Positions 4,548 through 27,180 of a stretch of DNA of 33,328 nt are shown here, one piece after another; the first letter of the stretch is position 1, and each line of letters starts with the position of its first letter. A program made the position numbers and the translations under genes. Under the pieces are notes generated by a model. It did no database searches and had not been told where the DNA came from. It saw only the letters and a program-made list of their open reading frames with translations. Source of the stretch: Bacteroidota bacterium (GTDB taxonomy: Bacteria; Bacteroidota; Ignavibacteria; Kryptoniales; JAKASW01); the NCBI GenBank assembly GCA_021845665.1, contig JAJZVO010000048.1, positions 1-33,328 of the forward strand, in the 5' to 3' direction.

Positions 4548-4553
4548 GATAAA

Positions 4554-4585: not shown

Positions 4586-4776
4586 ATTATCAAGGGTCAA
4601 AACAGAATCAAGACTGATCTTGCCTTCAGGGATGTCTTGGAGATGAGATTTTCCGTGGCACGAATATGGCACGATGGTCATACACTTTTGTATCAGAACA
4701 GACTTCTCGGTATCAGAAAATCTGCCAAAACCTGCTAAAAGAGGCTAAAGCAGTTTGAAAAGGGCAAGTTATACTT

Positions 4777-4806: not shown

Positions 4807-4876
4807 GACGGTCATATCGAAGCAATGCGCTGCATTCTCACCTTGAAGGTAGTCCTCGAAATTGCCTTTCTCCAGA

Positions 4877-4897
4877 AAGTATGATATTTTCATACTT
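4877..4897. promoter_or_regulatory. Candidate operator of abiE locus 2, AAGTATGA-N5-TCATACTT
   Basis: Perfect 8-bp inverted repeat (4877-4884 and 4890-4897), placed 3 bp before the GGAGGA ribosome-binding site of the plus-strand abiEi gene. Its position also argues that translation starts downstream of it, at 4910 or 4934, rather than at the ATG at 4862. Its sequence differs from the locus 1 palindrome, so the two regulators should not cross-bind. Confidence 0.65.
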
Positions 4898-4909
4898 ACT
4901 GGAGGAGAT

Positions 4910-6513: not shown

Positions 6514-6584
6514 GGCAGGTGATGGAGTTCGCCTCGAAACCATCCCGAATGTGCGAAAATGCACGGGATTGATAACTCCTACTC
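6514..6584 (+). promoter_or_regulatory. Fluoride riboswitch 1 (crcB motif)
   Basis: The aptamer core GGTGATGGAGTTCGCC (6518-6533) forms the first hairpin. The second hairpin has arms ATCCC (6542-6546) and GGGAT (6565-6569) with an inner GTGC/GCAC. It is followed at once by TGATAACTCCT (6570-6580), whose ACTCC pairs with GGAGT of the first loop to make the class-defining pseudoknot. The 3' strand is shared with the terminator downstream, so fluoride binding should favour read-through and switch the GTPase gene on. Confidence 0.93.
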
Positions 6585-6606
6585 AACGAAGAGTAGGAGT
6601 TTTTTG
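6575..6606 (+). terminator. Rho-independent terminator of riboswitch 1
   Basis: Perfect 10-bp stem ACTCCTACTC (6575-6584) / GAGTAGGAGT (6591-6600) with loop AACGAA and a run of Ts (6600-6605). The 5' arm contains the ACTCC needed by the aptamer pseudoknot, giving mutually exclusive folds. The only Shine-Dalgarno-like sequence for the next gene (AGGAG, 6595-6599) is inside the 3' arm. Confidence 0.9.
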
Positions 6607-6610
6607 TTTT

Positions 6611-11427: not shown

Positions 11428-11437
11428 TACTGACATA

Positions 11438-11492
11438 GGCGATGGAGTTCGCCGAATAAGCTTTGCGCCCCCGGCGCAAATGATGACTCCTG
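11438..11492 (+). promoter_or_regulatory. Fluoride riboswitch 3 (crcB motif)
   Basis: GGCGATGGAGTTCGCC (11438-11453) is identical to the core of riboswitch 2. The second hairpin is TTTGCGCC-CCC-GGCGCAAA (11462-11480), followed by TGATGACTCCTG. It stands in front of crcB, the gene that gave the motif its name. All conserved elements are present. Confidence 0.96.
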
Positions 11493-11542
11493 TCCGCACG
11501 GTCTTTTTAATCATGGACCAACTGTGCGCGGCAGGAATTTTT
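11488..11542 (+). terminator. Terminator of riboswitch 3
   Basis: The long hairpin pairs TCCTGTCCGCACGGTC (11488-11503) with GGACC...GTGCGCGGCAGGA (11515-11536), ending in a T-run (11538-11542). The 5' arm shares the TCCTG strand with the aptamer, as in riboswitches 1 and 2. Confidence 0.85.
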
Positions 11543-11576: not shown

Positions 11577-11921
11577 ATGTTTAGAAATATACTCGTTATT
11601 ATCGGTGGCGGCATCGGAGCTTTTTTCCGGTATCTGCTCTCCGGCTGGGTTTATAAAGTCCTTGGAACGAACTTCCCACATGGTACTCTCGCAGTGAACG
11701 TAATAGGCTGTTCCGTCATAGGTCTCTTTCTTACGATAGCAGAAGACAGGTTCCTCATCAGCCCCTCTTTCCGAATCTTCTTTGCGGTTGGAGTGCTTGG
11801 TGGATTCACCACATTTTCAACTTTCAGCTTCGAGACCGTCGGGCTGCTCAGGGATGGTGCCATCGCGATAGGGTTATTGAACGTTGGCGTTTCGATCGTC
11901 GTTGGACTCACCGCGACATGA
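11577..11921 (+). CDS. crcB: Fluoride channel CrcB/Fluc
   Basis: Inner-membrane fluoride channel of 114 residues with four hydrophobic segments, a normal size for one Fluc subunit. Family motifs are present: GGGIGAFFRY (10-19), the pore Asn41 in LAVNVIGC, and GGFTTFSTFS (75-84), which holds the phenylalanines and threonines lining the fluoride path and the central Na site. A single gene implies the usual dual-topology homodimer. It is under riboswitch 3 and followed closely by a DUF190 gene, a common partner of crcB. Confidence 0.96.
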   Translation: MFRNILVIIGGGIGAFFRYLLSGWVYKVLGTNFPHGTLAVNVIGCSVIGLFLTIAEDRFLISPSFRIFFAVGVLGGFTTFSTFSFETVGLLRDGAIAIGLLNVGVSIVVGLTAT

Positions 11922-11962
11922 GTCGGAATGCTGGCAGGGAGAATAATCTAATGGAGGATAAA

Positions 11963-12316
11963 ATGAAACTTGAAGGCACGGGTAAACTTCTCCGGATCTT
12001 TATCGGCGAAGAGGACCACCTCAACAGAAAGCCTCTCTATCAGGTATTCGTGGAACGGGCGAAGGAGTTCGGACTCGCGGGCGCGACCGTCCTACGCGGC
12101 GTGGAGAGCTACGGTGCTACAAGCAGGATCCATACCGCGAAGCTTCTCGAGCTAAGCGAAGATCTTCCTCTCGTGATCGAGATAGTGGACACTGAAGAGA
12201 AAATCGATTCGTTCCTTCCAATAGTTACCGAGCTCTTCGAGAAAGCAGGGTGCGGAGGAATGGTCACGGAGGAAAAAGCCACTGTGATCCACTATACTCC
12301 CGGGAAGGCGCCCTAA
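11963..12316 (+). CDS. DUF190 family protein, copy 1
   Basis: Small PII-like (ferredoxin-fold) protein of 117 residues, often encoded beside or fused to CrcB. Recognisable features are GKLLRIFIGEEDHLNRKPLY at the N-terminus, the AKEFGLAGATVLRGVESYG segment, DLPLVIEIVDTEEKI and the GCGG near the end. ATG 11963 is chosen because GGAGG stands 4-5 bp upstream; upstream in-frame ATGs at 11918 and 11951 lack such a site. The function is not established; a nucleotide- or ion-sensing regulator of the channel is an inference from the PII-like fold. A second copy lies at 23693. Confidence 0.9.
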   Translation: MKLEGTGKLLRIFIGEEDHLNRKPLYQVFVERAKEFGLAGATVLRGVESYGATSRIHTAKLLELSEDLPLVIEIVDTEEKIDSFLPIVTELFEKAGCGGMVTEEKATVIHYTPGKAP

Positions 12317-12360: not shown

Positions 12361-12382
12361 TTCACTAAATTGTTTTGTCATT

Positions 12383-12446
12383 TAGGAGATGACGCCCTCC
12401 TTTCCGGAAATCCTTTCGGAAACACGCTATCGCTGATGGCGCCTAC
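12383..12446 (+). promoter_or_regulatory. Divergent fluoride-riboswitch-like leader (candidate riboswitch 4)
   Basis: GGAGATGACGCCCTCC (12385-12400) has the layout of the crcB-motif first hairpin: a 4-bp stem around ATGxxxCC. TGATGGCGCCTAC (12434-12446) matches the conserved 3' strand, with GGCG able to pair with the CGCC loop. An AAAC linker is also present. What is missing is a normal second hairpin: between the halves lies TTTCCG/CGGAAA (12401-12422), and the bases directly before TGATG (GCTATCGC, 12426-12433) find their only good complement upstream, at 12333-12340. No terminator follows. It lies 80 bp before the Hyf-like operon. Confidence 0.5.
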
Positions 12447-12525
12447 CAAGTAGCAACATCATTACCCGAAGGTACGGTTACCTGAGTGGTATTGCGTTGA
12501 ACTTAGTGAGTGTAAGACAAGGTCG

Positions 12526-13491
12526 ATGATTATGCTTTTAGCACTGAGCTTGCTCCAGCTCCTGTATGTTTTACTGCTGGCGCCGCTGGCCGCGGGGATC
12601 CTTGTGAAGATCGAGGAAGTTCTCGAGTCGAAAAAGGGTCCGTCTGTTTTCCAGCCGTATTATGATCTCGCGAAGCTCTTCCGCAAGGAGAGCCTGGTGC
12701 CAACTGTTGCTTCGCCCTTCTTCATGGTTGCGCCATATCTAACCTTCGCATTCTATCTCCTGCTCACTTTGGTTCTCCCCATCATAACCGCCTTTCCGCT
12801 GACGTTCGGACCGGTTGTTGACTTCATCGGCGGCGGCCTCGTATTCGGAGCCGCGGCCACAGTGAAGAAGCTCGCTGCTATCGACAGCAGAAATAACTAT
12901 TCGCATCTGGGAACATCGAGGGCCGCCAGCGTCGGTGCCCTTTCGGAGCCTATTATGCTCCTCATCTTCATAATGCTTGGGGTCATATCCCAGACGAACA
13001 ACCCGTATGTCATAAACAACGTACTTCAGACTTCCGGCGCCTGGTACGGGTCACTCGTGCATTGGTTTGTCACGATAGCGTTCTTCATGGTCTTAATCGT
13101 TGAGACGGGCAAGTTGCCCATAGAGTCCCATACCATGGGGGAATTGGGGATGATAGACCAGTCCATGGAGATGGAGTATTCCGGCAGGGAACTGGCCCTC
13201 TATAAATGGGGAGGGTACATGAAGCATTTCCTCCTAATGAACGTCTTTATGAACGTGCTCGCCGTTCCTTTCCTCGTTCCGATGACACCTTCTACGACCG
13301 CACTCCTCGTTTACCCGGTAATAAATTTCATAAAGATACTGGCCCTCCTGATCGTATTTGCGCTTCTTAACGAGTCGGTCTCCAAATACCGTCTGTTTAG
13401 GATATTCGACTATGTCTCGGTCACGTTTGTATTCGCATTCCTTGCGGCACTGGTATTCTTCACAACCCGGACAGGTGGGGGATTTCGATGA
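12526..13491 (+). CDS. HyfC/HycD/NuoH-like membrane subunit
   Basis: Integral membrane subunit of 321 residues with about eight hydrophobic helices, homologous to NuoH/HyfC, the subunit that joins the peripheral arm to the membrane arm. Seen motifs: IEEVLESKKGPSVFQPYYD (about 28-46), equivalent to the conserved RxGPxxxQPxxD loop; the SRAASVGALSEPIMLL helix; and ETGKLPIESHTMGELGMI followed by MEMEYSGRELALYKWG (about 192-230), whose acidic residues line the coupling path. It opens the operon of six Hyf-like genes. The start is ATG 12526 or 12532. The next gene overlaps by 4 bp. Confidence 0.9.
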   Translation: MIMLLALSLLQLLYVLLLAPLAAGILVKIEEVLESKKGPSVFQPYYDLAKLFRKESLVPTVASPFFMVAPYLTFAFYLLLTLVLPIITAFPLTFGPVVDFIGGGLVFGAAATVKKLAAIDSRNNYSHLGTSRAASVGALSEPIMLLIFIMLGVISQTNNPYVINNVLQTSGAWYGSLVHWFVTIAFFMVLIVETGKLPIESHTMGELGMIDQSMEMEYSGRELALYKWGGYMKHFLLMNVFMNVLAVPFLVPMTPSTTALLVYPVINFIKILALLIVFALLNESVSKYRLFRIFDYVSVTFVFAFLAALVFFTTRTGGGFR

Positions 13492-14150
13492 CACTCAACA
13501 GCATCTTTGTTCTTGTCGGTTTCATTCAAATTGCGCTCGTCACATTCATGCAGTGGCAGACATATATATCGAGCGTAATCAAAACCTTCTCCATCGGTTC
13601 TTACGTTCTCGCCGCTTTTCTGCTTGCTGCCGGATATGTCGGGCATGAGCCGTACCTGATTGCACTCGGTGGGCTTACCGCGGTAATACGTGCATGGTTC
13701 ATCCCGAGCTTTCTGTCGAGGATGCTTCGACGCGACCGCTGGAGAGCGAGAGAAATCAAACCGGTCCTCGGAATCGCGTCGACAATTATCCTCTCACTCT
13801 TGTTCGCGGTGTTCGGTTACGTGATCTACGCATGGACGATGTATGACTATGTTCATTCGGCGTTGGGTGCGATACCGGTCGCCCTTTTCCTTCAGGGTGC
13901 CTTCCTCATAATATCAAGACGCACACCAACCACCCAACTCATCGGTTATCTCGTGATGGAAAACGCCCTTTATCTTTTTGGCTTTCTATTTCCGGAACTT
14001 CCATTCGTGGTGGAAGCCGGGGTCGTGCTCGATGTAATCGGCACCATAATGATCTCAGGAGTCATTGTCCGGCTGAAAGAAGAGCCCGCCCAGAACGCCG
14101 ATGTGGACGATTCGACTCCACGCGAGGATTTCACGGAATTGAGAGGTTAA
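13488..14150 (+). CDS. HyfE-like membrane subunit
   Basis: Membrane protein of 220 residues with six to seven hydrophobic helices, resembling hydrogenase-4 component E, which contains a NuoK-like part. Two acidic residues inside hydrophobic helices (VMENALYLFGFLF) fit the buried glutamate of NuoK-like subunits. It is coupled to the upstream gene by an ATGA overlap and lies 3 bp from the next gene. The C-terminus is a short, charged cytoplasmic tail. Confidence 0.8.
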   Translation: MTLNSIFVLVGFIQIALVTFMQWQTYISSVIKTFSIGSYVLAAFLLAAGYVGHEPYLIALGGLTAVIRAWFIPSFLSRMLRRDRWRAREIKPVLGIASTIILSLLFAVFGYVIYAWTMYDYVHSALGAIPVALFLQGAFLIISRRTPTTQLIGYLVMENALYLFGFLFPELPFVVEAGVVLDVIGTIMISGVIVRLKEEPAQNADVDDSTPREDFTELRG

Positions 14151-14153
14151 GCG

Positions 14154-15524
14154 ATGATTTGGATCTATTATCTGCCGGTCGTCCTCAGCGGTATTGGTGG
14201 ACTTCTTTGCCTCGTGCCGAGAACCAGGTTTGAGGAAGATGTCTCTATAATAGCTTCCTTTGCTGCTCTGGCATCATCGATACTTATCGCCTTTTTGCCG
14301 AACGCAACTTCGTTTGGACTCTATGTGGACGGATTCTCCAAACTAATGCAGATAATGATTTCTGCAGTCTACGTTCTCACTGTCATTTTCTCGATACACT
14401 ACCTTGAGCATATCGAGAACAAACTCTTTCAGGCCAATCTATACTTCCTCCTTTTGAATTTGTTCGTGGTCTCTATGTTCTTCACCGTCATGGTGGATAA
14501 CGTCGGGCTGCTGTGGGTTGGAGTAGAGGCCACCACCGTCACAAGTGCACTCCTGATCGCGACAGACAATAACGAGCTCGCAGTAGAAGCCACCTGGAGA
14601 TACATCATTATTGTCTCAACGGGTCTTACAATCTCCCTCCTTGCTACAATCTTCATCTATGGTGGCTTCCATACTTTGTCCCTTGATGCGCTTCTCCGGG
14701 CCCCGCAGGCCACAAAGATTGTTTCTGTTGGTGCCCTTCTCGGGATCATAGGTTACGGAACCAAAGGCGGAATCTTTCCGATGCACACCTGGCTTCCTGA
14801 CGCACACGGTCGTGCTCCGGCACCCATAAGCGCGATGTTCTCCGCCATTCTTCTCCCGGTCGCCCTATACACTATCGTGAGGTTCGTCCAGATCGTCCCG
14901 ATGCAGAGCGTGAGGAACTTCGCCGTTGTCCTGGGCTCGCTTAGTGTTATTGTGGCCTCGCTCATGACTTTCTCGCAGAGACAGTACAAGCGCATGTTTG
15001 CGTATTCTTCAATCGAAAATATGGGTGTCGCTCTCATCGGCATCGCGCTTGGAGGGAACGCCTTCATCGGAAGCGTGATAATTATACTGACTCACGCCTT
15101 CGCGAAATCAGCCGCCTTCTTTTTGACGGGTAACATCCTCGCCGCCTATCGAACGAATACCATAAAAGATGTGAAAGCTGTTTCCAGGACGATGCCACTC
15201 ACCGGTTATTCATTGTTCTTCGCCGGTTTGGCGGTTACCGGAGCCCCGCCGTTCGGGACTTTCTTCGGTGAGATCCTGATAATGACTCGCATGTTGCAAG
15301 TCTATGGTGTCTGGTTCACATTAGTAATTGCTTCGTTCCTTGTCGTGGCCTTTGTCGGCCTGAACTACCGGGTAATCAGGATGGTATTCTCCGAACCGGT
15401 CGAGCCGTCCGGAAAGATGGATGATAACGCCACGGTCCCGATTATCAGCCTCGTCATCGCATTCAGCATGGTCTTCCTTACACCCGTTGTCTACTTCTTC
15501 CTGAAAGGAGTGGTAGTACGATGA
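14154..15524 (+). CDS. HyfF-like proton-channel subunit (NuoL/M/N family)
   Basis: Antiporter-like membrane subunit of 456 residues with about fourteen helices. The residues that form the proton channel in this family are present: Glu in WVGVEATTVTSALL (about 125), Lys and His in KGGIFPMHTWLPDAH (about 204-218), Lys in RQYKRMFAYSSIENMG and Lys in THAFAKSAAFFLTGN (about 318). The channel is thus predicted to be functional. The gene ends in a 4-bp overlap with the large-subunit gene. Confidence 0.92.
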   Translation: MIWIYYLPVVLSGIGGLLCLVPRTRFEEDVSIIASFAALASSILIAFLPNATSFGLYVDGFSKLMQIMISAVYVLTVIFSIHYLEHIENKLFQANLYFLLLNLFVVSMFFTVMVDNVGLLWVGVEATTVTSALLIATDNNELAVEATWRYIIIVSTGLTISLLATIFIYGGFHTLSLDALLRAPQATKIVSVGALLGIIGYGTKGGIFPMHTWLPDAHGRAPAPISAMFSAILLPVALYTIVRFVQIVPMQSVRNFAVVLGSLSVIVASLMTFSQRQYKRMFAYSSIENMGVALIGIALGGNAFIGSVIIILTHAFAKSAAFFLTGNILAAYRTNTIKDVKAVSRTMPLTGYSLFFAGLAVTGAPPFGTFFGEILIMTRMLQVYGVWFTLVIASFLVVAFVGLNYRVIRMVFSEPVEPSGKMDDNATVPIISLVIAFSMVFLTPVVYFFLKGVVVR

Positions 15525-16774
15525 TTCGGGCCGTTGGCATCGCGGGAGGTGATCAGGATAAACTCATGCTCCACGACGGTAAGAAGGTTTGGACGACGTC
15601 GGAAAAAAGCGGGGATGAATGGATTACGGGCCAACTGAAGTTAGTGGCCGATCGCGACACCGGCATAAGAGGCCAGGAAGTCTTTGGCGACGGAGTTTTT
15701 GACTTCAGGTACGGCCCCGTTACCGGGGGGATTATTGAATCCGGGGCGTACCACTTGTTTACATACGGGGAAAGAATACTGTGCGTGAATGTCGACTGGA
15801 GTTACAAGCGCCGCAATCTCGAAAGCTCAGCTATCGGCCTCGGCCTCCAGGATGCCTTGAACGTTGCTGAAAGCGTTTGCGGTAATTTCGCCTTCTCTCA
15901 TTCGCTCGCAATGTCCAGGGCGATCGAGTCGGCCCTTTCTATTGAAATCTCTCCGCAACTCAGAAAGGTTCGCATAATTGCGCTCGAGTTGGAGAGGGTT
16001 TATAACCACATTTATGTGATCTCGCAGCTCGCATCCGCTGCGGCGCAAAAAGTCATGGTCAGTCATTTGCAGGCGATTTACGAAGACCTTCTCCGTCTTA
16101 ATAATGACTTCTTCGGGTCGAGGTTCCTCAGGGGATTCAATGGAATCTCAGGTACAACAAGACCTTTCAATGATGAAGCCCTGATTCATCTCTCCCGCCG
16201 ACTTGGGAACCTGTCCGACCGATTTGAATATCTCTACGAACGCGCACTTGAAAGCGAAAACTTCATGGATCGTTTGCACGATACCGCAACACTCGATTCG
16301 GACAAGGCTGAGAAAATTGGAGTTACAGGTCCGACGCTCAGAGCCACAGGAGTGAGGGAGGATTTCAGACTCCAAGACCCGGATTATGAAGGCCTGAGAT
16401 GCGCCACATCTCAGATGGGAGATTCACTGGCGCGAATGGAAGTCAGGGCGGAAGAAGTGTTTGAATCTGTGGAGATCATATCAGATATGTCTGGAGAGTT
16501 GAAGGAACTGAGAGATTCCGGAATCGCACCGGGCGCCGGCAACAAGTCCGCCCTTGACGGGTCCGGTTCGGGAATCGGCTACTGTGAATCGCCGAGCGGT
16601 CTCCTGGCATATATTGTCGAGCTGCAGCGCGGTAAGATATCCTCTGTTTATGCAGCCACGCCTTCCATATTCGGATTCAAAGCCATAACGGAATCTCTTC
16701 TAGGGAACATCTTCACAGATTTTCCCTTCGCGGTCGAATCTTTCGGAGCATATTTCGCAGATGCAGCAAGATAA
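15521..16774 (+). CDS. HyfG/NuoD-like large subunit lacking Ni-binding cysteines
   Basis: Cytoplasmic subunit of 417 residues homologous to the NuoD/[NiFe]-hydrogenase large subunit. GPVTGGIIESGAYHLF (about 65-80) and the later YKRRNLES correspond to the GPxHP and HRGxE regions, and ESVCGNFAFSHSLAMSRAIE (117-136) aligns with the L1 motif region. Only the first L1 cysteine (Cys120) remains; the second is Phe. The C-terminal DFPFAVESFGAYFADAAR has no DPCxxC. A Ni-Fe centre therefore cannot be bound in the normal way, so this is an energy-converting-hydrogenase-related protein, not a hydrogenase. The NuoC-like portion fused in E. coli HyfG is reduced to a short N-terminal stretch. Confidence 0.88.
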   Translation: MIRAVGIAGGDQDKLMLHDGKKVWTTSEKSGDEWITGQLKLVADRDTGIRGQEVFGDGVFDFRYGPVTGGIIESGAYHLFTYGERILCVNVDWSYKRRNLESSAIGLGLQDALNVAESVCGNFAFSHSLAMSRAIESALSIEISPQLRKVRIIALELERVYNHIYVISQLASAAAQKVMVSHLQAIYEDLLRLNNDFFGSRFLRGFNGISGTTRPFNDEALIHLSRRLGNLSDRFEYLYERALESENFMDRLHDTATLDSDKAEKIGVTGPTLRATGVREDFRLQDPDYEGLRCATSQMGDSLARMEVRAEEVFESVEIISDMSGELKELRDSGIAPGAGNKSALDGSGSGIGYCESPSGLLAYIVELQRGKISSVYAATPSIFGFKAITESLLGNIFTDFPFAVESFGAYFADAAR

Positions 16775-16870
16775 GCACGGAACTCGAATGTGCAAGAAAT
16801 CGGACTCGAATGAATTGGTACATAGTGCAAATGAGAAGTTCATGATTTTGTGCTTTGGTTTTTTGGATTT

Positions 16871-16905
16871 GTTTAGGATTTCGAATTTAGAATTTAGGAT
16901 TTGGT
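16871..16905. repeat. AT-rich TTTAG-type intergenic repeat, copy 2
   Basis: Three imperfect copies of a TTTAGGATTT/GAATTTAG word in the 149-bp gap before the NuoB-like gene, similar to 10905-10940. GAGCTTAG occurs beside both copies. This gap is the longest inside the Hyf-like operon. Confidence 0.4.
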
Positions 16906-16923
16906 TTGAGCGTGGAGCTTAGC

Positions 16924-17406
16924 ATGAAGTGGTGGCCCTTTTATGGATTGACCAGAAGACTTACCGAACGGACACGTTACGCAAAGGACATGACCTTCCC
17001 ATCGGCGTCCAGAATATTCAGAAAGTCCCTTCACATCTATCCTATCGACGTTGGCAACGCAAATGATCTGAACTTCGACATGAGAGCGCTTCAGGCTCCC
17101 CAATACAACATTCATAGATTCGGAATATTTTTTGCCGACGTACCGCGACACGCCGATGTTCTCCTCGTCCTCGGCAGGCCAACGGAAAAGATGGTCCCCG
17201 TCCTGCTCGAGACAGTAAATCAAATGCCCGGTCCTTATTCTATCGTCTCAATAGAAAGTGAAAGAGATAGACGCGATATCGAAAGTCCAGGTGGAGTTGA
17301 TATCGACAATCTCCAACTTCCTAACCTGGTGGCCCATATCACCGACTACCATGAACCAAGGGATATCATTGCGGTACTTTTGAACCTGATGGGGAAGGTG
17401 AACTGA
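16924..17406 (+). CDS. HyfI/NuoB-like subunit without any cysteine
   Basis: Cytoplasmic subunit of 160 residues homologous to NuoB, which normally carries the N2 [4Fe-4S] cluster. Homology is seen in YNIHRFGIFFADVPRHADVL, LGRPTEKMVPVLLETVNQMP and the following GPYSIVSI. The positions of the cluster ligands are replaced (PIDVGNANDLNFD where CGCNxCE is usual), and the whole protein contains no Cys, so it cannot bind the cluster. ATG 16924 has GGAG 6 bp upstream; a TTG 18 bp earlier in frame is less likely. It is followed 2 bp later by the HyfB-like gene. Confidence 0.87.
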   Translation: MKWWPFYGLTRRLTERTRYAKDMTFPSASRIFRKSLHIYPIDVGNANDLNFDMRALQAPQYNIHRFGIFFADVPRHADVLLVLGRPTEKMVPVLLETVNQMPGPYSIVSIESERDRRDIESPGGVDIDNLQLPNLVAHITDYHEPRDIIAVLLNLMGKVN

Positions 17407-17407
17407 T

Positions 17408-19285
17408 ATGATATTTCTTTATCTGGCGCTTGCCTTATACCTGTCCGGAGTTGCCGTTTCATCAAATAAGGAGCTGAGCTATTGGATAGCTTTCGCAGCC
17501 TCCATTTCGTCCCTCATCGCCGGGATGTCCGCCATGATAAACAGCTTCTCGTCGCCGGGTTTCTCCATTATGCCTGGATTCTCCATCAGCGTGGGCCTCG
17601 ACGCAACTTCCGGTGTCTTTCTAGTCGTCGCCTCGATCTCCTACCTGGCGCTCTCGTTCTACTCTGTCGATTTCGGAAAACTCTTCAGCAGAAAGATGGC
17701 TGCGTGGTTCAACCTGTCACTCTTCGGGATGACGCTCGTGATAGCTGCCCAGGATTCAGTCAATTTTATGATTGGGTGGGAAGTAATGACAATAGGTCTG
17801 TTTCTCCAAATCCTGGAACGCAAGGATTCCTACGAGGACGCTTTTCGATTCCTGGCATTCGGCGAAGCATCGGCCATGGCTCTCATCATCGGGTTTGCGG
17901 CTCTCTTTCTATCCAGCGGCACAGTCTTAATCAAAGCGGGTGTCACAGCGACCCCGTTTTTCCTCGTGATGGTGACGCTAGGGTTCATGATAAAAATGGA
18001 CATTTTTCCATTTCACACCTGGATCACTGGTGCCTATTCGAAGGCTCCATCAAATACCGCGGCTCTCCTCAGTGCCCCGTTGACTCTCATGGGGGTCTAC
18101 GGAATCGTCCGCGCTCTGTCGATTGCCGGGTACTCCGACTGGTGGGGAATAGGTGTCATGGCGTTTGGAGCGGTTTCGGCTTTTTGGGGCGCGATGCAAG
18201 CCGCCGCCGAGAGAAGTCTTAAGAAGCTTCCCGCCTATTCCACCGTGGAGAACAACGGTATAATACTCACTGCCATAGGGCTAAGTGCGATGGCAGGCGC
18301 GTCGGGTTCACAGCCTATGATGGTACTCTCGCGATTTGCCTTCCTGGCAGCTCTGTTTGTCGCATTCTCACACACCGCGGCAAAGTCGCTGCTCTTCATG
18401 TCTGTTGGGCACGCCAAAGAGTCGCTTCAGGAGGAATCGATAGACAACGTCCGTGGAATATGGAGCAACGTTGGGGGAATTCCTGCATTCGGCATCCTGA
18501 CCTCGGGGCTTTCATTCAGCGCGTTTCCTCCCACCATCGGGTTCGTGGGAGAATGGATGATCCTCGAAGCTCTCTTTCAGTCATATAAGTTTCAGGGCAA
18601 TGCTCAACGGCTATTGACGGCTTTCGCCGGAATTCTCATTGCTCTCGCGATTGGCCTCGCCGCGTTTTCTATGATAAAACTGATTGGGTACACGGCCCTC
18701 GGTCCCGACCACGGTAAAAAGGCCCACCGGTTCCCGTCGCTCAAGATAAGGTCTTCGGAGGTGTTCCTTACTGCGTTGATTCTTTTAAGCGGAATATTTT
18801 CGCCTTTCTTAGTCAAGATCCTCGGCTATTCTAATTTCTTGGGTGGGTTGCTAGCCGTACCGGATCCGTTACTCATTCTTTCGAGTAATCCGATATTCGG
18901 AGTTGTCTCGCCTACGATGTTCGTTGTGGTAGTTGGATTCCTGTTTATCGTACCGTACCTCATTTACCACCGAAGCGCAAAGAAAGCCAGGCGCGTACAG
19001 GCCTGGAACGGAGGCCAGACGCTTACCGAAGACGAGTACTTCACAGTACCGGCATACTCGTTCATTTTGGAATACATTCTCCGCAAGGTTTACCGCACGA
19101 AGGAGAAGAGGATGGGCTACACGGTGGAAGTCAGCAATAAAGATCTCGCTGAGTACCTTTACGAGGTTCTGGACAAGTTTGTAAGGAGGCTGAGCTACCT
19201 TGTCGGCCGGACCATTATGAATGGAAAAATCTCGCTGTACATACTGTATATCATCATTGTGTTTGTGCTTGCATTCTTGCTGTAG
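17408..19285 (+). CDS. HyfB-like proton-channel subunit (NuoL/M/N family)
   Basis: Large antiporter-like subunit of 625 residues with about fourteen core helices and a C-terminal amphipathic extension ending in one last transmembrane helix (YILYIIIVFVLAFLL). Channel residues are retained: Glu in GWEVMTIGLFL (about 125), Lys in IKMDIFPFHTWITG (about 196), Lys pair in RSLKKLPAYSTVENNG (about 272) and Lys in HTAAKSLLFMSVG (about 326). With the HyfF-like subunit this gives two complete candidate proton channels. It is the last gene of the Hyf-like set. No HyfA/HyfH-type ferredoxin or NuoC gene is present. Confidence 0.92.
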   Translation: MIFLYLALALYLSGVAVSSNKELSYWIAFAASISSLIAGMSAMINSFSSPGFSIMPGFSISVGLDATSGVFLVVASISYLALSFYSVDFGKLFSRKMAAWFNLSLFGMTLVIAAQDSVNFMIGWEVMTIGLFLQILERKDSYEDAFRFLAFGEASAMALIIGFAALFLSSGTVLIKAGVTATPFFLVMVTLGFMIKMDIFPFHTWITGAYSKAPSNTAALLSAPLTLMGVYGIVRALSIAGYSDWWGIGVMAFGAVSAFWGAMQAAAERSLKKLPAYSTVENNGIILTAIGLSAMAGASGSQPMMVLSRFAFLAALFVAFSHTAAKSLLFMSVGHAKESLQEESIDNVRGIWSNVGGIPAFGILTSGLSFSAFPPTIGFVGEWMILEALFQSYKFQGNAQRLLTAFAGILIALAIGLAAFSMIKLIGYTALGPDHGKKAHRFPSLKIRSSEVFLTALILLSGIFSPFLVKILGYSNFLGGLLAVPDPLLILSSNPIFGVVSPTMFVVVVGFLFIVPYLIYHRSAKKARRVQAWNGGQTLTEDEYFTVPAYSFILEYILRKVYRTKEKRMGYTVEVSNKDLAEYLYEVLDKFVRRLSYLVGRTIMNGKISLYILYIIIVFVLAFLL

Positions 19286-20013: not shown

Positions 20014-21219
20014 ATGCCTGTACAGGAACAAGATATCGGGGCTCACCTCCAGCCGAAGAACAGAAGCTCGGCTTTGAGATTTGTTCTGTTGATTGGTATC
20101 GTGAGCCTCTTTGCCGATGCCACATACGAAGGAGCTCGCAGTATTGCAGGGCCGTATCTCGCGGTCCTTGGCGCGAGTGCCACGCTTGTCGGAATCATCG
20201 GAGGATTCGGCGAGCTTCTCGGCTACGGCTGGCGCCTTGTGTCCGGAAGGTTCAGCGAACGGAGCGGAAAGTTCTGGCCCGTTACACTCTTCGGCTACGT
20301 CATTCAAATGAGTTCAGTGCCGTTAATGGCGTTGGCTCCCAATTGGCTGGTCTTCGGACTTCTCGTAGTAATGGAACGACTCGGAAAGGCTACCCGCAAT
20401 CCGCCCCGCGACGTTATGCTCTCCCACGCTGGAAAGCAGCTCGGAGGTTACGGATGGGTATTCGGCACGCACGAAGCGCTCGACCAGCTTGGCGCACTCC
20501 TCGGCCCTCTTGCGGTAGCGGCTGTCCTCGCTGCCCATGGGAGTTACAGAATTGCCTTCGCGACGCTCCTCGTTCCTGCCGTAATATGCGTAAGTCTGAT
20601 CTTCACTGCCCGCATTCTGTACCCGAAACCGGAGGACCTTGAACCTGCTCCTCCACCAAACGTGGAGTCTAAGGGGCTCCCGAGAATCTTCTGGATCTAC
20701 CTTGCCGGGGCTGTTCTCGTCGCTGCAGGATTCGCAGACTTCTCGCTTATCGCATTTCACTTCCAGAAAACCGATGGTATACCCAGCACGTGGATCCCGA
20801 TTTTCTACTCGCTTGCCATGGCTGTCAGCGGGACCGGCTCACTCGTCTTCGGGCGTTTGTTCGATCGAGTCGGACTGAAGGTATTGATCCCTTTAACAAT
20901 TATCTCGGCCGCGTCGACGCCCCTCGTGTTCTTCGGAGGATTCTGGCTCGCTCTCCTCGGTTCCGCCTTGTGGGGGCTCGGTATGGGGGTGCACGAATCG
21001 ATCATTCCCGCTGCTGTTGCGACGATGGTACCGCAGCAGCGTCGACCCTCAGCCTATGGAATCTTCACAGCAGGCTACGGCGTCTTCTGGTTCATCGGAA
21101 GTGTTTTGCTCGGAATATTGTACGACGCATGGTTACCCGCGGTTGTCATCTTATCTGTTGCGCTCCAGCTTACCGCGGTCCCCATTTTTGTCAGCCTTAA
21201 CAGGAAGACGGCCTTATGA
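20014..21219 (+). CDS. Major facilitator superfamily transporter
   Basis: Membrane transporter of 401 residues with about twelve helices in two halves. GRFSERSGK, between helices 2 and 3, is the family loop motif in variant form, and ERLGKATRNPPRDVMLSHAG in the central part is typical of a bacterial MFS subgroup. GRLFDRVGLKVLI repeats the loop motif in the second half. The substrate cannot be read from the sequence. Its position inside a fluoride cluster suggests export of a toxic ion or a damaged metabolite (inference). Confidence 0.85.
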   Translation: MPVQEQDIGAHLQPKNRSSALRFVLLIGIVSLFADATYEGARSIAGPYLAVLGASATLVGIIGGFGELLGYGWRLVSGRFSERSGKFWPVTLFGYVIQMSSVPLMALAPNWLVFGLLVVMERLGKATRNPPRDVMLSHAGKQLGGYGWVFGTHEALDQLGALLGPLAVAAVLAAHGSYRIAFATLLVPAVICVSLIFTARILYPKPEDLEPAPPPNVESKGLPRIFWIYLAGAVLVAAGFADFSLIAFHFQKTDGIPSTWIPIFYSLAMAVSGTGSLVFGRLFDRVGLKVLIPLTIISAASTPLVFFGGFWLALLGSALWGLGMGVHESIIPAAVATMVPQQRRPSAYGIFTAGYGVFWFIGSVLLGILYDAWLPAVVILSVALQLTAVPIFVSLNRKTAL

Positions 21220-21292
21220 ATAATATTTGTCGCAGCCTCCTGTTCTTTCTACAGCATCGCGCACAGGATCATAAAGAATTTAGGACAATAAC

Positions 21293-22387
21293 ATGAAGAA
21301 CGGAGAAAAGACGTCTTTACGCGTGTCGAGTTCGATGGCAGCCGAGCACGTTACGCCAGGCCACCCGGACAAGATATGCGACCAGATGGCAGATGCCATT
21401 CTCGATGCGGCGCTCTCGCAGGATTCCCAGGCACGAGTTGCCATCGAAGTGACTGGCGGGCACGGAAAGGTTTTCGTTGCCGGTGAAATGACCGCGAAGG
21501 CCAACATCGATATCGAGAGCATTGTGCTCCGGACCTATCAGGAAATCGGTCACACCGACGATATCGACGTGGCAGTCAAAGTCGCAAAGCAGTCACGAGA
21601 TATTGCCGATGGCGTCGACACAGGTGGAGCAGGAGATCAGGGCATCATGGTTGGATATGCCGTAGAGGGAAGTGATGACCTGATGCCAACCCCATGGGTA
21701 ATCGCACGTAACCTATGCCAGCGTTTGAAAAAGCTGCGCATCGAAGGGACACTGCTATATCTTCGCCCGGATGGAAAGTCTCAGGTCGTGATGCAAGATG
21801 GAACGGTAACACATGTGACAATCGCATCCCACCACGCTCCGGAAATCTCTCTGGACGCTCTTTACCGGGATATCTATGACCGTGTCGTGGTACCGATCGT
21901 CCCCAACGTCCCATTCGAGAATACCGTTATCAACGGACAGGGAAAGTTTACCAAGGGCGGCTTCGAGGCCGACTCCGGGACTACCGGACGGAAACTCGTA
22001 GTAGATAATTACGGACCAAACGTTGAAATAGGTGGCGGTGCTTACTCCGGCAAAGACCCGACCAAGGTGGACCGCTCGGCCGCATACATGTGCCGCCTCG
22101 CCGCCAAGTCAATTGTAGCATCCGGAATCGCAAGCGAAGCTATCGTGAGGGTCGCGTACAGCATCGGCATTGACCGCCCGAGCCTCCTTACCGTGCAGAC
22201 TCCTCTTGCACCGCAACAGGACGCCAGGCTTACGGAAAAAATCCGGCGCGAATTCGATTTCAGACCGCGGGCAATTATTGAACGTCTTGGGTTGCAGCAT
22301 CCCGACGGGTGGAGCTATGCAGAAACCGCCTCGTTCGGCCACTATGGCAGGAATAATTTTCCATGGGAACACGCGGTGCAGCTGTAG
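21293..22387 (+). CDS. metK: S-adenosylmethionine synthetase
   Basis: Makes S-adenosylmethionine from methionine and ATP, releasing phosphate and pyrophosphate, with Mg and K ions. Length is 364 residues, slightly short for a bacterial MetK. Motifs are clear: EHVTPGHPDKICDQMADAI (18-36), the adenosine-site loop GAGDQGIMVGYA (about 112-123) and the phosphate-binding GGGAYSGKDPTKVDRSAAYM (about 246-265). AGGA 7 bp before ATG 21293 supports the start. The next gene is pyrophosphatase, which would remove the pyrophosphate product. Both are Mg-dependent phosphoryl enzymes, plausible fluoride targets. Confidence 0.95.
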   Translation: MKNGEKTSLRVSSSMAAEHVTPGHPDKICDQMADAILDAALSQDSQARVAIEVTGGHGKVFVAGEMTAKANIDIESIVLRTYQEIGHTDDIDVAVKVAKQSRDIADGVDTGGAGDQGIMVGYAVEGSDDLMPTPWVIARNLCQRLKKLRIEGTLLYLRPDGKSQVVMQDGTVTHVTIASHHAPEISLDALYRDIYDRVVVPIVPNVPFENTVINGQGKFTKGGFEADSGTTGRKLVVDNYGPNVEIGGGAYSGKDPTKVDRSAAYMCRLAAKSIVASGIASEAIVRVAYSIGIDRPSLLTVQTPLAPQQDARLTEKIRREFDFRPRAIIERLGLQHPDGWSYAETASFGHYGRNNFPWEHAVQL

Positions 22388-22426
22388 TTGAAGTGAGGAA
22401 GTTGTGGTAAATGAAAGAGTGAAGGA

Positions 22427-22954
22427 ATGTCTAATTTAAAAGATTTGCCGGTCGATGAAAACGCCCTGGCAGAGGTCAATGCAATCATCGAGATTCCGAA
22501 ATGGACTCATGCGAAGATTGAGTATGACGTCAAACTCGAGATTTTTAAGGTCGATCGAGTTTTATACTCCGCTGTCCATTATCCCACGGCATACGGCTTC
22601 ATACCGGGTACCCTTTGGGACGATGGGGACCCGCTCGACGTTCTTGTCCTGACAGAAGAACCATTACAAACCGGCCTGTTCCTTCAGGTCAGACCGGTAG
22701 GCATCCTTGTCATGACGGACGAGAAAGGTTCTGACAGCAAGATACTATCCGTGCCCGTTCAGGATCCCAGATACAACCCAGTGAACGATATCGGCGATGT
22801 CCAAAACCATTTCCTCCGTGAGGTGGTCCATTTCTTTGAGACTTACAAGGAACTTGAAGGAAAGTCTGTGAGAAGTTTCGGTTGGGAGGGAAAGGATAAG
22901 GCTAGAGAAGCAGTAACGAAATCTGTTGAAGCATACAAGTCATTGAAGCATTGA
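22427..22954 (+). CDS. ppa: Inorganic pyrophosphatase, family I
   Basis: Soluble Mg-dependent enzyme of 175 residues that hydrolyses pyrophosphate. The signature DDGDPLDVLVL (about 65-75) holds three metal-binding aspartates, and the substrate region EIFKVDRVLYSAVHYPTAYGF is also conserved. Length is normal for the bacterial hexameric form. Family I pyrophosphatase is one of the best-known fluoride-inhibited enzymes, and its gene is a recognised member of fluoride-riboswitch regulons. The AAGGA stands directly against the ATG, closer than ideal. Confidence 0.95.
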   Translation: MSNLKDLPVDENALAEVNAIIEIPKWTHAKIEYDVKLEIFKVDRVLYSAVHYPTAYGFIPGTLWDDGDPLDVLVLTEEPLQTGLFLQVRPVGILVMTDEKGSDSKILSVPVQDPRYNPVNDIGDVQNHFLREVVHFFETYKELEGKSVRSFGWEGKDKAREAVTKSVEAYKSLKH

Positions 22955-22975
22955 GATGAGCGAAATGGTGGAGAT

Positions 22976-23689
22976 ATGAGAACTCTGATTTTGTCTGACA
23001 TACACGCGAATCTTCCCGCTCTCGCGGCTGTACTGAGGGATGTCGGTCACTACGACCTTTGTTTGTTTCTTGGAGATTCCGTTGACTATGGCTCGTTTCC
23101 GAAGGAGTGTGTGGAATTTCTTCGCGAGAACATGGACCAGGGTGTAATGGGAAACCATGACAATGCAATAGCCAACAACAAGGGCTGCGGCTGTCGTGCC
23201 GATTTCAAGATATATGCCGAAGAGACACTTGAGTGGCACAGGTCGCTTCTTGGGAAGGGCGACATAGATTTTCTCAAATCCCTTCCGACTACGCTGTTCG
23301 CGCACATTGATGGCCAATATATATACATGACGCATGGTGCCCCTGATGGGAACATGTACAAATATCTTCGCGAAGAAGAAATCGGAGAAAATGAAATTCA
23401 AGGATTGGAAAGATATGATCTGATACTTCTCGGCCACACGCATTTTCAGTTCAAGAAACAAATTGGAAACGCTACGGTAGTAAATCCTGGTAGCGTCGGC
23501 CTATCACGCGAGGACCACAACGCGTGCTACGCGGTACTGGAACACGGCGATGTCACTCTTCACCGGGTACCGTACGACAACAAACGGACTGTCGAAATGC
23601 TTTGGCAAGGCCCGGTTTCCACTTTCACGAAAGAGGGGCTATCAAAGATGATCGGCTGGATGCCGCCACAGATACAGGAGAAAGGATAA
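22976..23689 (+). CDS. Calcineurin-like metallophosphoesterase
   Basis: Phosphoesterase of 237 residues with a two-metal site. The five blocks are visible in order: SDIHAN (7-12), GDSVDYG, GNHDN, THGAPDG and LGHTHFQ. This is the YfcE-like subgroup with unknown natural substrate. GGAG 4 bp upstream of ATG 22976 supports the start. It lies between pyrophosphatase and the second DUF190 gene, only 3 bp from the latter. Confidence 0.9.
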   Translation: MRTLILSDIHANLPALAAVLRDVGHYDLCLFLGDSVDYGSFPKECVEFLRENMDQGVMGNHDNAIANNKGCGCRADFKIYAEETLEWHRSLLGKGDIDFLKSLPTTLFAHIDGQYIYMTHGAPDGNMYKYLREEEIGENEIQGLERYDLILLGHTHFQFKKQIGNATVVNPGSVGLSREDHNACYAVLEHGDVTLHRVPYDNKRTVEMLWQGPVSTFTKEGLSKMIGWMPPQIQEKG

Positions 23690-23692
23690 CCC

Positions 23693-24046
23693 ATGCGATT
23701 GTATGGAGAAGGAAAACTTATCAGAATTTTCCTCGGTGAAATGGACCGAAAGGACAATGAGCAACTTTACAAAACGATGGTCCTCAAGGCCAAGGAGTTC
23801 AAACTGGCCGGGGCCACCGTGTCTCGCGGAGCGATGGGTTTCGGGCCGGACAGTACATTCAGCAATTCGAGGTCTGTAAAACTAAGCGATGATCTCCCCA
23901 TGATTATCGAGATTGTCGACACGGAGGCAAACATAAGGAAGTTCATCCCGATTGTCGAACAGATCCTCGACGACGCAGGGTGTGGTGGTATGATAACCAT
24001 CGAGAACGCGGAAGTCATAAGATATCTCAGAGGAAAAAACGCATGA
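23693..24046 (+). CDS. DUF190 family protein, copy 2
   Basis: A 117-residue paralogue of the DUF190 protein beside crcB. It shares GKLIRIFLGEMDRKDNEQLY, the AKEFKLAGATVSRGAMGFG segment, DLPMIIEIVDTEANI and AGCGGMI. Roughly half the residues match copy 1 by eye. The RBS is AAAGGAT, 4 bp before the ATG. The stop overlaps the next start (ATGA). Having a second copy far from crcB, beside metal-dependent phosphatases, suggests that DUF190 is not only a channel accessory. Confidence 0.9.
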   Translation: MRLYGEGKLIRIFLGEMDRKDNEQLYKTMVLKAKEFKLAGATVSRGAMGFGPDSTFSNSRSVKLSDDLPMIIEIVDTEANIRKFIPIVEQILDDAGCGGMITIENAEVIRYLRGKNA

Positions 24047-24777
24047 CACGAGTAATAGGAAACGGGAGAAAGGAAACACGCGGCACCCAAATCCTTTCCT
24101 CCTTGACGTTGATGTTGCTACTGGTGATCGCATTATTGCCATCGGCCTATTGCCAATCTAATGATCGTGCCGGTATCTATTCTACCCCGGAACCACAAAA
24201 TCTGGGGATCCTTCAGGATTCCATAAGGTCGTACATCAAATCGGCCTCGTACGAAAGAGGATTGGCTGAAGTGGCAGACTCGGCGAAGTCTTTCATCGAA
24301 TCGAGGTACACCAAAGTCAAGAAGCCGGCTATCGTACTGGATATAGATGAGACATCTCTCTCTAATATCGAGTTTGAATATCGCTACGGCTTTGGATTTA
24401 ACTCAAAGCTCTGGAACGCATGGGTCAAGGAAGAAGCCGCCACTGCAATAAAGCCGACCCTCGGCCTGGCGCAATGGGCAGCCAGCCATCATATAGCAAT
24501 CTTCTTCATCACGGAAAGATCTCAGATATCCCGTAATCTTGTTGCCGACCCGACAGTGGTTAACCTTGAAAAAGCCGGTTATCCCGATTGGAAGCGGATT
24601 TATTTCAAGAATTCTCGAACCATCTCCACATCCGCGTTCAAAACATCCGCAAGGAAGGAAATTGAATCCGAAGGTTACACCATCGTAGCAAACATCGGCG
24701 ACCAGTATAGCGACCTGGTCGGAGATTTTGCTGAGGGGAAATTCAAACTTCCTGACCCGATGTACTACATACCATAA
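24043..24777 (+). CDS. Exported HAD-superfamily acid phosphatase
   Basis: Predicted secreted phosphatase of 244 residues. A signal peptide is visible: positively charged start, hydrophobic core LTLMLLLVIALLPSAYC, then cleavage near CQS. The Tyr before Cys makes a lipoprotein signal unlikely. The HAD nucleophile motif is LDIDETSLSN (about Asp100 and Asp102). FFITERS and the later IGDQYSDLVGDF match motifs II and IV of the class B/C acid phosphatase group. It probably frees phosphate outside the cytoplasm. The start at ATG 24043 has GAGG upstream and overlaps the DUF190 stop. Confidence 0.87.
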   Translation: MTRVIGNGRKETRGTQILSSLTLMLLLVIALLPSAYCQSNDRAGIYSTPEPQNLGILQDSIRSYIKSASYERGLAEVADSAKSFIESRYTKVKKPAIVLDIDETSLSNIEFEYRYGFGFNSKLWNAWVKEEAATAIKPTLGLAQWAASHHIAIFFITERSQISRNLVADPTVVNLEKAGYPDWKRIYFKNSRTISTSAFKTSARKEIESEGYTIVANIGDQYSDLVGDFAEGKFKLPDPMYYIP

Positions 24778-24793
24778 ACACTAAGCGAACCTG

Positions 24794-27151
24794 ATGAAGA
24801 GAATAATATCACGAGTTGAACAGAAAGGCCTCGCCGGCGAAAAGCTTCAGTACCAGCCTAAAGAGAGAATCGGCGTAATTGTAGTAGAGAATTTTCCAAT
24901 GCTCGGGAAGCTGACGGCTTTGCGTTTCCTTGAATGGGTCCAGCAGAACCCCGGCGGAGTTGTTTCCTTGCCGACAGGGAAAACTCCAGAAGACTTCATA
25001 AAGTGGGTGGCCCACTATCTTGCCGGCTGGGAAGAGCGTTCAGTGAAGGACGACCTCGAATCGAACGCGATCGATCCCTCAATTGCTCCGGACATGTCTT
25101 CTCTGCACTTTGTGCAGATAGATGAGTTTTATCCGATCACCCCCGAGCAGGAAAACAGCTTCTACTCCTACCTTAACAAGTTCTACATGAGTGAATTTGG
25201 ACTCGACCCTCAGAAGGCAATGTCCATTGATTGCAGCAGGATCGGCTTGCCGCAGGGAAAGACACTCCAGGATGTCTGGCCCGATAATACCGTTGATCTC
25301 TCACTCAGGACAAGACAGGCAAGAACGGCGCAGGAACGATTGCAACAGTGCGTCCTGGAGAATATAGATCAATGGTGCTCCGAATACGAAGAACACATAA
25401 GGAAGATCGGCGGAATCGGATTCTTTCTTGGTGGAATCGGGCCCGATGGACATATCGGGTTCAACATTAGGGGATCCGACCTCAATTCGACAACGAGGCT
25501 TACGCCGACAAACTACGAGACTCAGGCTGCCGCAGCAACTGACCTTGGCGGAATCGAAGTGTCACGGAACAGGCACGTCATAACAATCGGACTCGGTACG
25601 CTGACTTATAACCCTGAGTGCACGGCCATCATAACGGCCGCCGGAGAAGCAAAAGCGGAAGTCGTCGCCGGCGCGGTTTGCAATGAACGGAACGTCAGAT
25701 ACCCGGCGACGGTCCTCCAGACCCTCCCGAATGCAAGGTTCTTCCTTACCCAGGGAGCTTCCAAGCTGCTTCTTGAACGCAAGTACGAAGCTCTGTCGAA
25801 AACAGACAGTCTGTCGGACCGTGAAGTTGAAGAGATCGTCATTGATTTGGCCATTAAAAAAAACAAGCGACTCAGGGACCTTGGCCGCGAAGATTTCCAG
25901 AGCGACAGATTTGCCGCGATGGTTTGGAAAAAGTCCGGGAAGGATGAGAGTACCATCACCTCGCAGATTGAAAAGAATCTCATCGAAAGGATCGGGAAAG
26001 GTAGCGGGATAGAGATCAACACGAAATTTCTTCATACTGAACCGCACCATGACGATTTGATGCTCGGATACCTTGCCTACATCGTAAGGAGAGCAAGAGA
26101 TGCATCAAACAGTCACACGTTTCTTACCCTGACCAGCGGCTTCAATGCAGTAACAAACCGGTATATGCAGGACCAGCTTCAGAACCTGAAGTCTCATATA
26201 GAGCGAGGGGCCTTCGATTCGCTGATAACCGAGGGGTATTTCAAACCTGCAGCGAACCCCGGCCATGGCGGCGAGGCCAAAGAGAGGGACCGTGATGTCT
26301 GGCAGTACTTGGACGGCGTTGCCGAGAATAACCCGGCGACGAAACGCGAAGGAGAAGCAAGGCGGCTGCTCAGAAATCTATACACGTTGTTTCCCGACAC
26401 TTCTGCAGACGCCATGCCGCACAAGATCGATGAATTAATAGATTACTTCGAAACTCAATATCCCGGCAAGAAGGATTTACCGCACATCCAGCAGCTCAAA
26501 GGAATGACCCGCGAATGGGAGGCGGAATGCCTCTGGGGATATTTCGGTTTCAGCACATCATCAGTACTGGCCGCGCGGCTCGGCTTCTACAAAGGAGATA
26601 TCTTTACCGAAGATCTACGGATTGAAAGAGATGTCATTCCGGTTCTTGAAATTCTCCGGCGGGTCAAGCCGGATGTGGTCGGTGTCGCACTCGACCCGGA
26701 GGCGAGCGGGCCGGATACCCATTACAAAGTGCTTCAGGTTATGGCGGAGTCGCTGAAAATATATGAGAAGGAGTCAGGAAAGAGCGACATCAGAGTGATA
26801 GGATATCGCAACATCTGGTACAAGTTTCATCCATCGGAAGCAAATGTCTATGTGCCTGTTTCCTTGAATATGTTTGCTGTGATGAACGCTTCTTTCATGA
26901 ACGCCTTCGGTTCGCAGCGTGTCGGATCCTTTCCGAGCTATGAGCACGACGGCCCGTTTTCTGAACTGGCTCAGAAAATTCAGGTCCGGCAATACCAAAT
27001 GTTGAAAACATGTCTCGGTCGTGAATACTTCAATGAGCATCCAAGCCCTCTCATCCGGGCCACGCGCGGTTTTGTATTCCTGAGATCTATGACTCTTCCC
27101 GAATTCTATGAAACCTGCATGGCGTTGAGGAAATCGACCGAGAATGTTTAA
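24794..27151 (+). CDS. Glucosamine-6-phosphate deaminase (NagB) fused to PIG-L/LmbE deacetylase-like domain
   Basis: Two-domain protein of 785 residues. Residues about 25-340 form a NagB-type isomerase/deaminase: SLPTGKTPEDF, FVQIDEFYPI and GGIGPDGHIGFN, the last holding the catalytic Asp and His. After a charged linker, residues about 405-785 form a PIG-L/LmbE-like fold with the zinc motif TEPHHDDLMLG (about 415; canonical PHPDD, here PHHDD). This fusion is known in Bacteroidota-like bacteria. It could couple N-deacetylation and deamination of amino sugars, linking cell-wall sugars to glycolysis, above the enolase step. Its place in a fluoride cluster is unexpected. Confidence 0.88.
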   Translation: MKRIISRVEQKGLAGEKLQYQPKERIGVIVVENFPMLGKLTALRFLEWVQQNPGGVVSLPTGKTPEDFIKWVAHYLAGWEERSVKDDLESNAIDPSIAPDMSSLHFVQIDEFYPITPEQENSFYSYLNKFYMSEFGLDPQKAMSIDCSRIGLPQGKTLQDVWPDNTVDLSLRTRQARTAQERLQQCVLENIDQWCSEYEEHIRKIGGIGFFLGGIGPDGHIGFNIRGSDLNSTTRLTPTNYETQAAAATDLGGIEVSRNRHVITIGLGTLTYNPECTAIITAAGEAKAEVVAGAVCNERNVRYPATVLQTLPNARFFLTQGASKLLLERKYEALSKTDSLSDREVEEIVIDLAIKKNKRLRDLGREDFQSDRFAAMVWKKSGKDESTITSQIEKNLIERIGKGSGIEINTKFLHTEPHHDDLMLGYLAYIVRRARDASNSHTFLTLTSGFNAVTNRYMQDQLQNLKSHIERGAFDSLITEGYFKPAANPGHGGEAKERDRDVWQYLDGVAENNPATKREGEARRLLRNLYTLFPDTSADAMPHKIDELIDYFETQYPGKKDLPHIQQLKGMTREWEAECLWGYFGFSTSSVLAARLGFYKGDIFTEDLRIERDVIPVLEILRRVKPDVVGVALDPEASGPDTHYKVLQVMAESLKIYEKESGKSDIRVIGYRNIWYKFHPSEANVYVPVSLNMFAVMNASFMNAFGSQRVGSFPSYEHDGPFSELAQKIQVRQYQMLKTCLGREYFNEHPSPLIRATRGFVFLRSMTLPEFYETCMALRKSTENV

Positions 27152-27180
27152 CGGCCGTTTTAACATGATCAAGAACAATT

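Follow-up and report, generated by a model that had tools for sequence, protein, structure and literature searches.

Genes annotated as formate hydrogenlyase (FHL) have been listed since 2010 as common targets of fluoride riboswitches, with a convincing explanation lacking. What such a complex could contribute to the fluoride response is the question raised by the 33,328-base stretch of Bacteroidota DNA considered here (the window), which is the entire contig C42 of a draft genome (4.64 Mb, 95.6% complete). Behind a fluoride riboswitch it carries a six-gene operon for a complex I- and Hyf-like assembly, in the order NuoH, HyfE, HyfF, NuoD-like, NuoB-like and HyfB (S1 to S6 in the following). 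An initial annotation had proposed that this assembly retains its proton channels and has no redox centres, and had put forward the handling of H+ or HF as a hypothesis for its role. We find this observation to be confirmed and the interpretation to be partly supported. As far as sequence can demonstrate it, there is a riboswitch-led operon of six-subunit architecture with intact channel residues, in which the Ni, quinone and cluster sites are lost and purifying selection is maintained. Although the gene names imply a hydrogenase, its product probably transports ions and is induced by fluoride.

Redox sites and proton channels

By sequence, the best structural homologues of the complex are group 4 hydrogenases (PDB: 6cfw, 7z0s and 6u8y). 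The large subunit S4 aligns with MBH over most of its length (3.6e-22), and with FHL subunit 5 and NuoD in part. Its C120 corresponds to the first Cys of the RxCGxC motif; the other Cys of this motif is missing, as are both of the C-terminal DPCxxC motif, which leaves C120 as the sole survivor of the four Ni-ligand cysteines, just as the initial annotation had it. At the complex I quinone site, Thr stands in place of the GPQHP His and Gly in place of the DY-motif Tyr.

The small subunit S5 matches NuoB over residues 44-118 (9e-11, PDB). All four ligands of the NuoB-type cluster are lost, that is, the N2 ligands of complex I are absent, and the claim that the cluster cysteines are missing can even be extended, as the protein contains no cysteine whatsoever. 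Its start codon is taken as ATG 16924, with TTG 16906 as an alternative. The top structural matches of the predicted S5 model are complex I NuoB subunits, although the models of both arm subunits are of low confidence (pLDDT 44.8 for S4 and 52.1 for S5). The window proteins that were scanned gave no match to an Fe-S or ferredoxin domain, in line with the earlier statement that no ferredoxin-type gene is encoded. Also, HypD was not found in the window's genome at its 95.6% completeness, while control genomes scored positive, and [NiFe] maturation is therefore not expected.

The membrane part of the complex presents a different picture. The Glu of transmembrane helix 5 (TM5), the TM7 Lys, the TM8 His/Lys and the TM12 Glu are intact in both antiporter-like subunits, S3 and S6, as seen in the PDB alignments and the residue table, so that the proposed retention of the channel Glu and Lys residues holds. 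The NuoH Glu residues and the HyfE Glu pair are likewise conserved, both across the window-type copies and in the other fluoride-linked complexes discussed below. With the channel residues intact and the redox residues gone, the ion-translocating half has been retained and the electron-carrying half lost.

Five copies of the operon were identified in four genomes of two families, namely the window, two copies in G002 (a and b), one in G004 and one in G556. The carrier of the last belongs to another family of the same class and was found with a NuoH profile run over class and phylum. The S4 profile retrieved only the two G002 copies and that of G004 from the genome contigs; these loci were reached by two search routes and are counted once. 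Among 395 genomes of the phylum, the same profile at E 1e-60 matched the window alone, and no relative was found in the viral contigs scanned. The same redox-site losses occur in all five copies, and the relatives' operons sit in the same kind of fluoride island. S5 is free of cysteine in all four copies from the genus; in G556 the ligand positions are lost too, the sole Cys being one residue off. Relative to the nearest copy, the ratio of nonsynonymous to synonymous substitution rates (dN/dS) is 0.057, 0.042, 0.056, 0.135, 0.194 and 0.067 for S1 to S6, respectively. The intact frames, the losses shared by five copies and the dN/dS values well below 1 together rule out decay or chance.

A conserved Cys pair in S4, C120/C355, was considered as a source of alternative ligands and dropped, since G556 has Val in place of C355 and the quality of the S4 model does not allow the geometry to be judged.

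The link to fluoride is equally consistent. A fluoride aptamer lies just 5' of all five operons, in the window with 73 bases between its 3' end and the first ATG. The scores are 34.1 bits for the window, 32.5 and 32.0 for G002 a and b, 33.4 for G004 and 29.8 for G556, of which only the first reaches the RF01734 gathering score of 34. However, the E-values per genome are 1e-7 to 1e-6 for the genus copies and 5e-6 for that of G556, and these values, combined with the equivalent position in five of five cases, make chance matches unlikely.

Fluoride-linked complexes in other phyla

All six subunits homologous to those of the energy-converting hydrogenase-related (Ehr) complexes (HyfB, C, E, F, G and I) are encoded in the operon. 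Ehr complexes were reportedly described by Coppi in 2005 and by Marreiros in 2013, and we have seen them in Sulfobacillus, Nitrospira, Margulisbacteria and Methylacidiphilum. Their physiological role is not established. The window complex shares with them the six subunits, the large subunit free of Ni ligands and the Mrp-like antiporter subunits, but differs in its fluoride-riboswitch control, in having the HyfB gene last, and in the loss of the pocket signature, the NuoB-type cluster and the ferredoxin domain.

Searches of plasmids (tblastn) with the large subunit and an island MutS-like protein as queries turned up islands of matching gene content. Those of Burkholderia cenocepacia, B. multivorans, Caballeronia SBC1 and Mycobacterium branderi contain the operon with its gene order unchanged, HyfB at the end, and preceded each time by a fluoride riboswitch (40.9-55.9 bits), with a NUDIX gene in between in M. 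branderi. There are six fluoride riboswitches on a plasmid of Alicyclobacillus ALC3 that originates from acid mine drainage, and one of them leads a lone Ehr large subunit. At this locus (L054), the riboswitch has a terminator-like hairpin and is followed by the large-subunit gene (27763-29256), with a fragment of NuoH (32242-32484) 3 kb away; from its gene content, the locus looks like what remains of a fluoride-linked Ehr operon of Bacillota.

For comparison, eight Ehr loci without a riboswitch were considered: one on contig C59 of the window's own genome, where the riboswitch scan found none, and those of G031, Rhizobium, Rhodococcus, Allomeiothermus, Methylocalor, Azospirillum and Paraburkholderia. 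The HyfB-last order occurs in none of them, HyfB being first in seven and HyfI in Rhodococcus. In a tree of concatenated S1, S3, S4 and S6, the fluoride-linked complexes form one side of a branch with a support of 100/100, and the grouping is recovered again on S1, S3 and S6 with G556 added. The riboswitch-free large subunits share GPxH...EPGHF and a C-terminal NKS (8/8), as well as SGD in most cases, whereas this Ehr pocket signature is absent from all ten fluoride-linked ones, including those of Alicyclobacillus and G556. Ni ligands are also missing from all ten, which supports the earlier suggestion that fluoride-linked "formate hydrogenlyase" genes do not encode hydrogenases.

The Fe-S clusters show more variation. 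The Burkholderiales members keep the NuoB-type cluster ligands and a 2[4Fe-4S] domain with two ferredoxin-type motifs; in M. branderi the NuoB-type cluster is lost and the ferredoxin domain is partly left; in the window's group the cluster is lost and the domain is gone. The initial annotation had called for a survey of such operons for the same cysteine losses, and the outcome is thus divided: the loss extends to all of them for Ni but not for the cluster, and the absence of redox centres describes the window copy and its nearest relatives but fails as a general rule. Nor is the cluster loss specific to fluoride. Seven of the eight riboswitch-free complexes have the cluster, and the exception, Allomeiothermus, lost it separately (approximately unbiased (AU) test against a joint clade, p 0.0005). 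Cluster loss has hence been repeated in the wider family and is not due to fluoride linkage alone. The losses in M. branderi and in the Bacteroidota may be one event or two (tree support 77/69, AU p 0.25). From these comparisons, the fluoride-linked complexes are an Ehr clade of their own, specific to fluoride, in which one end branch is redox-free.

Two observations on the lost ligands can be added here. The Allomeiothermus silvanus plasmid carries a duplicated Ehr operon (L061, 12492-13364, and L062, 9136-10008) that has no fluoride riboswitch and whose NuoB-like subunit has lost four of four cluster ligands. A possible lead is an acidic cage at the former ligand positions, as window S5 has E113 at ligand 3 and both M. 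branderi and Allomeiothermus have Asp/Glu at ligands 2 and 3; it is not strictly kept in G556.

It is instructive to compare the window complex with other known systems. Group 4 [NiFe] hydrogenases (FHL-1, Hyf, MBH) are the closest structural homologues, but here the Ni ligands and the proximal cluster are missing. MBS works at its proximal cluster and keeps it, which the window complex does not. Respiratory complex I shares the channel Glu/Lys residues, while its N2 ligands and quinone His/Tyr have no counterpart here. Mrp antiporters, including the stand-alone one of Pyrococcus furiosus, likewise lack a redox part, and their antiporter subunits are homologous to those found here and contain Glu/Lys channels; the window complex differs from them by its NuoH, NuoD-like and NuoB-like subunits, and the window proteins that were scanned gave no Pfam match to MrpE, MrpF or MrpG. 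Genes of Hyf/FHL type that follow crcB-motif RNAs were read as formate hydrogenlyase (Weinberg 2010, PMC2864571; cited as FHL in PMC11139923). Against that reading, there is no Ni site here, no HypD in the genome and no Fe-S cluster in the window's branch. In the searchable literature, to which the primary 2012 riboswitch and 2013 Ehr papers do not belong, we found no report that joins fluoride-linked FHL genes with Ehr or describes a redox-free branch. Each half is known already, that is, the fluoride-linked FHL genes and the Ni-ligand-free Ehr, and priority in joining both is not certain.

Possible function and alternatives

In our view, the best explanation is a fluoride-induced, redox-free Ehr derivative that would act as a secondary cation/H+ transporter in pH homeostasis under hydrogen fluoride (HF) stress; we give it an even chance of being right. 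HF crosses the membrane, dissociates inside and acidifies the cell, and export of F− leaves the proton behind; this export relies on membrane potential or a proton gradient, and among the genes under fluoride riboswitches, Na+/H+ antiporters come next after exporters in frequency (PMC11139923). Isolated antiporter modules of complex I conduct protons without redox chemistry in proteoliposomes (PMC11496545), and a stand-alone Mrp without an energy-input module protects P. furiosus from acidification, likely by exchanging internal H+ for external Na+ (PMC8415708). It is from these precedents that a secondary cation/H+ transporter is proposed. Entry of F− would raise expression of the operon through the riboswitch. 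With HF entering and F− leaving via CrcB, net H+ would stay in the cell, and the complex, as an Mrp-like transporter probably moving Na+ or K+ against H+, would restore the cytoplasmic pH and the membrane potential that F− export needs. The NuoD/NuoB-like peripheral arm would then be a structural cap or gate on NuoH, and not an electron-transfer arm. Put more generally, the assembly may be a complex I-type machine without redox chemistry, a fluoride-controlled ligand-gated or secondary ion transporter in which the former electron arm has become a gate or sensor, and here too we consider the balance to be level.

Several points weigh against this proposal. The ion, direction and stoichiometry of the transport are guesses, two soluble arm subunits are not obviously needed by a secondary transporter, and the S4 and S5 models are of low confidence. 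Furthermore, related fluoride-linked complexes keep Fe-S clusters, so that redox chemistry may have driven the role that their ancestor had under fluoride, and a small subunit with cysteines is at hand in the carriers. The complete six-gene Ehr on C59 has no Ni ligands, but its small subunit has cluster and ferredoxin-type cysteines, and a small subunit of this type is encoded in four of four carrier genomes (66-100% identical). The initial annotation had named such paralogues, substituting into the complex, as evidence against its reading; the paralogues themselves do exist, which makes subunit exchange formally possible. Redox function would in that case be retained by borrowing. However, the C59 operon is self-sufficient and its type of small subunit also occurs in six members of the genus that lack the fluoride complex, S5 is conserved under selection, the large subunits of the two operons are only ~28% identical, and S4 would have no Ni or quinone site even if clusters were supplied. 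Exchange is thus disfavoured, and we regard it as quite improbable.

Another option is that F− or HF binds in the cavity that the Ni/quinone site has left, where NuoD, NuoB and NuoH meet, and either is itself co-translocated or acts as a gate on the proton channels, thereby coupling F− exit to H+ movement. The riboswitch linkage is strict, and only in fluoride-linked members has the pocket been re-tooled, with GPxH...EPGHF, SGD and NKSFN replaced and an Arg at the first His position in half of the ten large subunits. The Bacteroidota members have Thr there instead, a shared anion-site motif was not found, and most islands already have a fluoride exporter; we regard this option as unlikely. The complex could also be a fluoride-tolerant stand-in for the housekeeping Ehr, metal-free so that fluoride finds no target. 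The island is indeed rich in copies of fluoride-sensitive enzymes (enolase, pyrophosphatase, SAM synthetase), and the lone Alicyclobacillus large subunit behind its riboswitch would fit; but that locus also has the NuoH remnant and hence resembles a decayed operon, Ni is already absent from ordinary Ehr, the Burkholderiales versions retain clusters, and a redox-free protein is unable to replace a redox one. We hold such a replacement to be improbable to much the same degree as the borrowing of a subunit. Finally, the many lost catalytic residues might suggest a decaying pseudo-operon or an assembly error, an explanation that the selection data, the shared losses in two families and the conserved riboswitch and synteny refute and that deserves hardly any credence.

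The island and its significance

The features are collected in Table 1. The operon sits between CrcB-DUF190 and PAP2 in an island with four fluoride riboswitches (RF01734), which also encodes a dynamin-like GTPase, DUF6062, a zinc-ribbon protein, two DUF190 proteins, an MFS protein, SAM synthetase, pyrophosphatase, phosphatases, two MutS-like proteins and enolase.

Table 1. Coordinates of the operon and its surroundings in the window
Feature	Position	Strand	Evidence
Fluoride riboswitch 5' of crcB-DUF190	11429..11499	+	37.8 bits
crcB (Fluc fluoride channel)	11577..11921	+	TIGR00494 above cut-off
DUF190 protein, co-conserved beside complex	11918..12316	+	PF02641 3e-35; same neighbour in relatives
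Fluoride riboswitch (RF01734) leading operon	12376..12452	+	34.1 bits vs gathering score 34
S1, NuoH/HyfC-like membrane subunit, E-channel Glu kept	12526..13491	+	PF00146 1e-27; FHL subunit 4 alignment
S2, HyfE-like, NuoK-like Glu pair kept	13488..14150	+	hydrogenase 4 membrane subunit 1e-9
S3, HyfF-like antiporter subunit, channel residues kept	14154..15524	+	PF00361 2e-49
S4, NuoD/HyfG-like large subunit	15521..16774	+	PF00346 7e-22
S5, NuoB/HyfI-like, zero cysteine	16924..17406	+	NuoB family 3e-12; PDB NuoB 9e-11
S6, HyfB-like antiporter subunit, channel residues kept	17408..19285	+	PF00361 1e-30; HyfB 1e-105
Remaining island: MFS, SAM synthetase, pyrophosphatase, phosphatases, DUF190, MutS-like pair, enolase	20014..31596	+	synteny in three other island copies

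Within the operon, S4 and S5 are separated by an AT-rich spacer of ~150 bases (16775-16923), the remaining subunit genes overlapping or abutting; the relatives have a spacer of roughly 120-570 bases at the same position. The dynamin-family GTPase (6551-8422) has its own fluoride riboswitch and is present also in the Burkholderia and G556 islands. A tandem MutS-domain-V-like pair (27181-30326) recurs in fluoride islands, with relatives (43-55% identity) on many plasmids, enterobacterial ones included. The 785-residue protein at 24794-27151 matches no family above cut-off, and no homologue was detected in the other island copies examined. A phage-type integrase (32301-33095, minus strand) and, at the opposite end, two AbiE-type toxin-antitoxin gene pairs (3012-6137) are likely the borders of a mobile island.

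The data thus suggest that the fluoride-linked "formate hydrogenlyase" genes belong to a separate, fluoride-specific Ehr clade that is not a hydrogenase and has some members without any redox centre. If this is true, a dedicated ion-translocating complex belongs to the fluoride response. The window's branch would then be a case of complex I proton machinery naturally uncoupled from electrons, and would offer a natural complex I-like system for studying proton channels without electron input, which lies at the heart of the question of long-range coupling in complex I.

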